Assembly (NCBI GenBank): GCA_021808315.1
Contig: JAKBBY010000009.1
Coordinates: 1 to 37,503, forward strand
Direction: 5' to 3'
DNA from: Pseudomonadota bacterium
GTDB taxonomy: Bacteria > Pseudomonadota > Alphaproteobacteria > Acetobacterales > Acetobacteraceae
DNA length: 37,503 nucleotides
The translations under genes and the position numbers were made by a program. The notes beneath the pieces were generated by a model. The model was not told the origin of the DNA. It made no database searches and saw only the letters and a list, made by a program, of their open reading frames with translations. The first letter of the stretch is position 1; the number at the start of each line of letters is the position of its first letter. Below, piece after piece: positions 35,939 through 37,503 of the stretch.

Positions 35939-37503
35939 ATGGATACTATGCCCGACCTGGACCGCGCTTACGCGTTGCTGCAAGGCTCCCCCTTGTTCGA
36001 TGCCGACTATTATCGCCAGCATAACGCGGATATTCCATCGGATATTGACCCGATCATGCATTTTTGCCAATCGGGCTGGCGCGAAGGGCGCTACCCCAAC
36101 CCGTATTTCGACCCGGCCTTCTACCAGCGGACCAATCCCGACATCGCCCGCGCCGAGATTAACCCGCTGGTGCATTATCTGGAGTTCGGCGACCGCGAAG
36201 GGCGCCGACCATCGGCGCGGTTCGATCCGGCTTGGTATCGCGATCAATATGGCCTTGGCGCAGACGCCATCGCCCTGGCCGATTTTCTCGAACGGCGCCA
36301 TTCCGGCAAAGTCAGCCCGGTGCCGTTATTCGATCCGACATGGTATCTCGACCGTAACCCCGATGTCGCGGCCAGCCGAACCGATCCGTTCGAGCATTTT
36401 TGCGCGTTCGGCGTGATCGAGGGGCGCGACCCTTCGCCCGATTTCGACGTAAAATTCTACCGCACCCGCTATGCCAGCGAGCTGGGTGGCGAAAATCCGC
36501 TGTTACATTATCTCGCGCACCGCCAGCACGGTTTCCTGCCGCTGCGCCCGCGCGCCGAACAGCTCATCGCCGGCACCATACGCGCTGCAACCCGCCCCGG
36601 CCCTGATTTCGAGACGGTGCGGCCAATCCCCGCCAGCGCGCCGCGTCAGGCGATGCTGCTCGCCTATTACCTGCCGCAATTTCATCCGATTCCCGAAAAT
36701 GATTCCTGGTGGGGCACCGGCTTCACCGATTGGACCAATCTCGCCCGCGCAACACCGCGCTTCGATGGTCATTATCAACCCCGCGTGCCGCGCGATCTCG
36801 GTTTCTACGCGCTCGATGATGATCGCACGCTGCGTCGCCAAATCGCGCTCGCCCGTGGGGCCGGCATTGCGGGGCTGGTGTTCTATTATTACTGGTTCAA
36901 CGGCCATCGCCTGCTGCAGCGCCCGCTCGAACAATTTCTCGCCGAGCGCGACCTCGACAGTCAGTTTTGCCTGATGTGGGCCAATGAAAACTGGACCCGG
37001 CGCTGGGATGGCTTGTCGCGCGAAGTGCTGATTGAGCAGGATTATCGCGATGAGGACGACATCGCCCTGATCGATGATTTCGCCCGCCATTTCGCCGATC
37101 CGCGCTATATCAGGCTCGATGGTCGCCCCTTGTTAATGATCTATCGCGCCGCCCTGATCCCCGATGCCGCCGGTGCCATCGCGCGCTGGCGCACCTTGTT
37201 CGCCGAACGTCATGGCGAAAACCCGATCATGATGATGGCGCAAAGTTTCCATGATGATGACCCCAAACCCTATGGTCTGGATGGCGCAATTGAGTTTCCG
37301 CCGCATAAATTGATCGTCGATATTCCCAAAATCAACGCACGCTTGGACCGTTTCGACCCCGAATTCGATGGCGATGTCTATAATTATCAGGATGTCATCG
37401 CCGCCTCACTCAACGCGCCGGAGCCTGATTTCCCGCTGATCCGCACTGCCGTTCCGGGCTGGGATAATGATCCGCGCCGCGAAGGTCACGGCGTGGTGCT
37501 GCA
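35939..37503 (+). CDS. WbsX-type glycan biosynthesis protein with N-terminal repeats (cut by window end)
   Basis: The open frame starts at ATG 35939, with GGGA eight bases upstream, and runs 521 codons to the window edge without a stop. Residues 20-205 hold five repeats of about 37 residues, each starting FDxxxY(Y/R) and usually ending HYLxxGxxEGRxPS (starts at F20, F57, F95, F131 and F169). From residue 238 the WbsX/GH99-like domain follows: LAYYLPQFHPIPENDSWWG, FTDWTNLARA, GLVFYYYWFNG, LMWANENWTRRWDG and RPLLMIYRA. WbsX proteins occur in O-antigen and polysaccharide loci and are treated as glycosyltransferase or glycan-acting enzymes. The substrate is unknown. It is tightly coupled to the amidase. 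Confidence 0.9.
   Translation, partial: MDTMPDLDRAYALLQGSPLFDADYYRQHNADIPSDIDPIMHFCQSGWREGRYPNPYFDPAFYQRTNPDIARAEINPLVHYLEFGDREGRRPSARFDPAWYRDQYGLGADAIALADFLERRHSGKVSPVPLFDPTWYLDRNPDVAASRTDPFEHFCAFGVIEGRDPSPDFDVKFYRTRYASELGGENPLLHYLAHRQHGFLPLRPRAEQLIAGTIRAATRPGPDFETVRPIPASAPRQAMLLAYYLPQFHPIPENDSWWGTGFTDWTNLARATPRFDGHYQPRVPRDLGFYALDDDRTLRRQIALARGAGIAGLVFYYYWFNGHRLLQRPLEQFLAERDLDSQFCLMWANENWTRRWDGLSREVLIEQDYRDEDDIALIDDFARHFADPRYIRLDGRPLLMIYRAALIPDAAGAIARWRTLFAERHGENPIMMMAQSFHDDDPKPYGLDGAIEFPPHKLIVDIPKINARLDRFDPEFDGDVYNYQDVIAASLNAPEPDFPLIRTAVPGWDNDPRREGHGVVL

Follow-up and report, generated by a model that had tools for sequence, protein, structure and literature searches.

A predicted solenoid of FDxxxY repeats, found on WbsX-family and other surface-polysaccharide enzymes, that may hold sugar polymers

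Introduction

Modules built of repeats are a known means of tying proteins to polysaccharides, as SLH does, or of joining enzymes together, as TPR does. In the S-layer of Caulobacter, the N-terminal domain of RsaA binds O-antigen along its length (PMC6978808), and because of this example an arrangement in which a protein holds a polysaccharide chain along an extended surface can be said to exist. The RsaA domain may be a functional analogue of the array described here, with the difference that RsaA binding is calcium-dependent. A second point of comparison is the WbsX family: in Burkholderia gladioli, mutants in a large wbsX gene are phage-resistant and their O-antigen is presumed to be aberrant (PMC13391952). 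The family model, PF14307, spans only the predicted barrel of such proteins, and the parts that lie in front of it and behind it in the gene described here and its relatives (repeats at the front, GT4 and GT2 domains at the rear) fall outside the model.

Here we describe a gene at the end of an Acetobacteraceae contig in which a WbsX domain is preceded by five tandem units of what we call the FDxxxY repeat. Its arrays resemble the TPRs carried by some glycosyltransferases in being tandem units, predicted to be helical, joined to sugar-transfer domains, and one protein (L169) carries TPRs besides FDxxxY repeats; they differ in that the arrays give no TPR match, the units are 36-38 residues long and the signature is another. 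Searches of the open-access literature found no description of the FDxxxY repeat, and passages of PMC6978808, PMC9614988 and PMC12175726 make no mention of it. The repeat is likewise without an entry in the copies of Pfam and NCBIfam that were searched, and may be catalogued without a function in AlphaFold DB or InterPro.

Results

The window (the whole 37,503-nucleotide stretch of DNA that was analysed) is an entire contig, C16, of a 2.78-Mb genome in 283 contigs with an estimated completeness of 89%. An ATG at 35939 begins a frame of 521 residues which stays open through the window end (35939..37501, + strand, the last whole codon ending at 37501). As the window is the whole contig, this is the 5' part of a gene cut by the contig end, as the initial annotation had supposed; the remainder was not found elsewhere in the genome, where the search gave only weaker matches to other proteins. 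An amidase gene (PF01425; 34245..35936, + strand) ends 2 bases upstream.

The five units begin at F20, F57, F95, F131 and F169, exactly where they had first been placed, and at 37, 38, 36, 38 and 37 residues they have the size of about 37 that had been given for each. Unit 1 (residues 20-56; 35996..36106, + strand), unit 2 (residues 57-94; 36107..36220, + strand) and unit 4 (residues 131-168; 36329..36442, + strand) carry the full motif: FD, an aromatic pair, an NPDI-like turn (NADI, NPDI or NPDV) and an H-[FY]-x6-EGR ending. FD and the aromatic pair (YY, FY, WY, WY and FY) are present in five of five, so the initial description of a motif common to every unit holds for these two elements and fails for the turn and the EGR ending, found in three units each. 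Unit 3 (residues 95-130; 36221..36328, + strand) is shortened, without the turn, and has neither H-Y nor EGR in the window protein, whilst unit 5 (residues 169-205; 36443..36553, + strand) keeps H-Y and lacks the turn and EGR.

A chance or low-complexity resemblance, with no repeated structural units behind it, would draw some comfort from these two units, which are without half of the motif as first stated, and from two of the ten unit pairs (1-3 and 4-5), which score no better than shuffles and are uninformative alone because their observed scores were reached by 90 and 93 of 500 shuffles. Against this, the mean unit-versus-unit BLOSUM62 local score is 48.7, compared with 19.3 for within-unit shuffles (the highest of 500 shuffle means being 23.7), and a repeat profile from which the window's own units were left out recovers the window protein (E 2.3e-63) and detects each of the five units, unit 3 being the weakest (1.2e-4). 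Of 934 real ORFs this independent profile matches 67, and of 934 shuffled ORFs none. Shuffle scores, profile and the high-confidence AlphaFold2 model, with its two helix elements per unit, together exclude the resemblance being accidental, and we give that explanation practically no credence. On motif columns, the same unit compared across different proteins is 56% identical and different units within one protein are 35% identical; on the sequences, the five-unit array is kept in place within the repeat-WbsX family.

For the 222-residue repeat region by itself, with 55 sequences, AlphaFold2 gives pLDDT 93.2 and pTM 0.87. Alignment A1 comprises the window protein and 54 of the 80 relatives kept below, and L086 was left out of the alignments for an in-frame stop. 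Each unit is modelled with two short helix elements, one over the FDxxxY segment (sometimes broken in two) and one around the DPxxHY segment, and because this model of residues 1-222 is confident, structure prediction sides with the initial view that the segments are repeated units. When all 521 residues are modelled, the repeats score 91 to 97 (10-residue block means, residues 11-200) and the WbsX part is of mixed confidence.

Ten repeat-rich stretches searched against Pfam at E up to 10 gave nothing above cut-off, TPR, SLH and carbohydrate-binding modules included; residues 1-240 of the window protein have no Pfam match above cut-off either, and NCBIfam, run on the window protein, holds no family for the array. 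A CASTOR1_ACT-like match on one array (E 4e-4) lay below its own cut-off and was discarded. By sequence, no solved relative of the window protein was found, and the repeat profile drew a single match at E 0.76. With the repeat model, the best Foldseek match in the PDB has an E-value of 3.6 and none of the 58 chains aligned by VIA reaches Z 2; RsaA is not among either set of fold matches. At the level of models, these searches suggest that the array may be a new fold.

Behind the array, as first described, lies the WbsX domain: residues 241-520 (36659..37498, + strand), beyond the end of unit 5 at residue 205, match PF14307 ('Glycosyltransferase WbsX') over profile positions 2-292 of 350, with E 5.6e-101 and 338.9 bits against a gathering cut-off of 25.1. 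The initial annotation called this a catalytic WbsX domain; the part within the window is modelled as a barrel that Foldseek and VIA place with hydrolases, and the candidate catalytic glutamates lie beyond the window end. Foldseek with the WbsX-part model, of a truncated domain and of mixed confidence, returned 22 PDB matches at E up to 0.001 with GH99 in the top rows (4ad5, E 5.9e-5), and VIA gave Z 15.1 for GH71 and Z of about 11 to 14 for GH99-type chains. On these models WbsX would be better described as a GH99/GH71-like hydrolase barrel.

The motif NEWxEG is present in all 57 full-length relative ORFs with a frame of at least 850 aa and the same start motif, located past the point where the window stops; the gene being truncated there, the window lacks it. 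In these relatives it aligns with NEWHEG of BxGH99, in a weak sequence match (E 0.03); the two glutamates of NEWxE we take, from PDB titles (E333Q, E336Q), to be the catalytic pair of GH99. Likeness to GH99 therefore consists of a similar predicted fold and NEWxEG, whereas Pfam score, the weak alignment and the mixed model confidence set the two apart: the Pfam GH99 model PF16317 gives the intact domain of a relative (L008) 14.5 bits (E 0.019), short of its cut-off of 33, for which reason we do not file WbsX as GH99, and it does not match the window protein at E up to 10. In plasmid records, WbsX-family proteins are labelled 'glycoside hydrolase family 99-like'. The same genome encodes a second WbsX protein, on contig C27 (L006/L102), of 370 aa and without repeats (PF14307 E 8.9e-140). 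A family that bears the name glycosyltransferase, yet is modelled like a glycoside hydrolase in which the candidate catalytic pair is retained, poses a directly testable question.

A contig scan of genomes gave 281 relatives of the gene, of which 80 were kept, mostly from Acetobacteraceae or Rhodospirillales (Acidiphilium, Acidocella, Neoroseomonas and MAGs), the others from Bradyrhizobium, Microvirga and further taxa. Unbroken frames mostly run to about 1,250 to 1,350 aa. Pfam domain order, taken from two full-length relatives, is repeats, WbsX (241-580), GT4 (778-916) and GT2 (957-1085) in L008 and the same in L064, which agrees with the earlier suggestion that further domains might follow WbsX. 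The amidase precedes the gene in L008-L012 too, 59 to 85% identical to that of the window, and in four of five relatives checked (L008, L009, L012 and L015) rmlB and rmlA lie directly 3' of the repeat-WbsX gene; in the fifth, L078, they are elsewhere, about 20 kb off provided that the locus lies on contig C7. In the window's own genome rmlA is on contig C117 (4,558 bases), which ends inside rmlB, and this fits the same gene order continuing across the gap.

Two relatives have an in-frame stop in the repeat region as deposited: the closest of those kept, 90% identical (L012:6001-9759), and L086:6001-7548. Either sequencing error or real decay would account for the stops. The window's genome also holds a second repeat protein (L100:3-3014) on contig C251, cut by the contig start and represented by an open frame of 1,004 aa with four to five units by profile and a GT2 domain.

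Beyond these relatives, a repeat-region profile at E 1e-6 finds the repeat in 34 of 299 Pseudomonadota genomes, the window's genome included, and in 27 of 154 genera. At the places listed for the 33 other genomes there are 66 repeat ORFs, with 1 to 18 units each and the array at either end of the protein; 39 of the 66 (a raw count, Pfam at E 1e-5) have sugar-transfer domains of unrelated folds, among them 13 RgpF/WsaF, 2 WbsX and 2 glycerophosphotransferase. The remainder are two with a methyltransferase domain only (L185, L191), four with secreted-type domains (L149, L172, L180, L187), two with unrelated enzyme domains (L156, nucleotidyltransferase-like; L178, AMP-binding/carrier/thioesterase) and 19 with no known domain. 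The L178 protein (L178:506-4987), by its domains unlike the sugar-transfer majority, has two repeats at the C-terminus. The repeat profile matches 133 of 72,556 plasmid records, and among the 40 matches listed 27 are GH99-like (9), glycosyltransferase (12), methyltransferase (5) or polysaccharide export (1), the others being RTX or secreted (5), hypothetical (4) and unannotated (4). The initial annotation had proposed a modular element and a search for it beside other glycosyltransferases; both are answered by this distribution, in which the repeat is a mobile module on unrelated enzymes and 39 of the 66 ORFs have sugar-transfer domains.

Arrays of such variable length, placed at either protein end, are what would be expected if the repeats were a passive spacer, a part without a ligand that fixes how far the catalytic domains lie from other parts. 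The array of the repeat-WbsX family, with its five units kept in place (56% versus 35% identity, above), is difficult to square with this, and a spacer leaves both the restricted set of partners and the existence of small, mostly-repeat proteins unexplained, so we consider it improbable.

Several loci, picked for detailed reading because they looked informative and not at random, bring repeat proteins of different kinds together. Within 20 kb, L202 encodes an RTX protein whose N-terminus bears three repeats, together with SapC, a Wzt-type exporter and a GT4-RgpF protein that has repeats as well. On a Rhodospirillum rubrum plasmid an RTX protein and an M10-type protein both have repeats at the N-terminus, and nearby are rfbC and genes for type I secretion and LPS precursors; a polysaccharide-export cluster on an E. 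coli plasmid has one repeat methyltransferase and one repeat GT2; and a Salipiger locus has two repeat glycosyltransferases and two small repeat proteins, together with a large calcium-binding protein in which no repeat was detected. The repeat is found on Ig-like/FG-GAP and subtilase proteins as well, and these, like the RTX-type proteins, are presumably outside the cell, to judge from their domains.

Phages scarcely figure as carriers, one of 50,697 phage records matching, and 10 loci with the repeat were found on viral contigs. One of these, L192, carries the repeat-WbsX gene family itself and may be host DNA. On six others (L196-L201) the encoded proteins resemble one another, are about 470 aa long apart from one that is cut at 276 aa, and have a pair of FDxxxY units close to the N-terminus; one of them was scanned and had no Pfam match, and the type is possibly a phage virion protein. 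A further viral contig (L195:3476-4273) encodes 266 aa with an HExxH zinc-protease-like motif, seen by eye, and two C-terminal FDxxxY units, and has no Pfam match at E 1e-3. Searched against BFVD, the repeat model has one match under E 1e-3; it is a protein of Fadolivirus that bears the name glycosyltransferase (E 6.7e-4, TM-score only 0.23). The best BFVD matches are giant-virus proteins (Fadolivirus, Yasminevirus, Harvfovirus and Hyperionvirus), three of the first eight being named glycosyltransferase, and we treat this model-based resemblance as a lead.

Directly after the gene, 19 of 71 relatives encode a small protein, about 145 residues long, that consists of a leader of about 55 and two FDxxxY repeats (for example L047:9367-9804 and L064:9749-10249, with 17 other relatives); the count covers relatives with at least 700 bases of flank, nine of the 80 having been left out for short flanks. 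The companion is absent in the other 52, which include the Acidiphilium and Acidocella relatives counted, and that of L047 has no Pfam match above cut-off. In L152 a small leader-plus-two-repeats protein adjoins another repeat glycosyltransferase. A search of the window's genome gave no standalone companion: four of six matches are the repeat genes on C16 and C251, a match on C252 (E 0.017) was rejected since it contains no repeat when read in its own frame, and the remaining match is on C176 at E 0.17.

It is on account of this neighbour, encoded next door in 19 of 71 relatives, that a protein-protein scaffold stays a serious rival, in which repeats of different enzymes, or of an enzyme and the companion, would bind each other and so bring polysaccharide enzymes together in one assembly. 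Helical solenoids commonly bind proteins, TPR arrays gather enzymes in other systems, and several FDxxxY proteins are often found in one locus. A scaffold would explain the companion, also seen beside the repeat glycosyltransferase of L152, and the clustering of repeat enzymes well, and the secreted-type proteins less readily: those of the RTX, Ig-like/FG-GAP and subtilase kinds, presumably extracellular, would need partners there. The window's genome and 52 of 71 relatives, moreover, show no standalone companion to pair with, and we hold a scaffold to be possible but rather unlikely.

Discussion

Among the carriers of the FDxxxY repeat are unrelated enzymes of surface-polymer synthesis and some proteins of secreted type, and because of this the repeat is probably a shared module for holding surface sugar polymers. 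The case for glycan binding, which the initial annotation had offered as one option, is circumstantial, made by the fact that polysaccharide enzymes unrelated to each other share one unit with RTX-type proteins, at times within a single locus. Surface polysaccharide is what links the enzymes in the cytoplasm to the proteins that are presumably secreted. From this we infer that the repeat is a mobile, polysaccharide-holding solenoid, borne by intracellular enzymes as well as by surface proteins outside the cell, and would put the chances of this being right at about even.

Read in terms of such a polysaccharide-holding solenoid, the window gene would be the leading part of a large modular enzyme with a role in building a surface polysaccharide, one which probably contains rhamnose, the dTDP-rhamnose genes adjoining the gene in relatives. 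The solenoid would offer an extended surface along which the growing or acceptor chain is held, and the catalytic domains behind it would act in turn on that chain, whilst the same module on RTX-type proteins may keep them attached to the completed polysaccharide on the outside of the cell.

A broader proposal, which we advance tentatively and rate as less likely true than false, is that the FDxxxY unit constitutes an undescribed carbohydrate-binding solenoid, possibly of a new fold, borne both by polysaccharide-assembly enzymes and by the RTX/S-layer-like proteins that sit on the same polymer, so that the polymer would be recognised by one module both within the cell and on its exterior; giant viruses may have acquired this module on glycosyltransferases of their own.

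About one in nine of the Pseudomonadota genomes surveyed (34 of 299) has the repeat, mostly on surface-building and sometimes on possibly surface-coating proteins. Should the repeat bind polysaccharide, it would account for the way in which modular enzymes retain a chain as it grows, would hint at the polymer on which a given surface protein sits, and would aid the annotation of many proteins now called 'glycosyltransferase' or 'hypothetical'.
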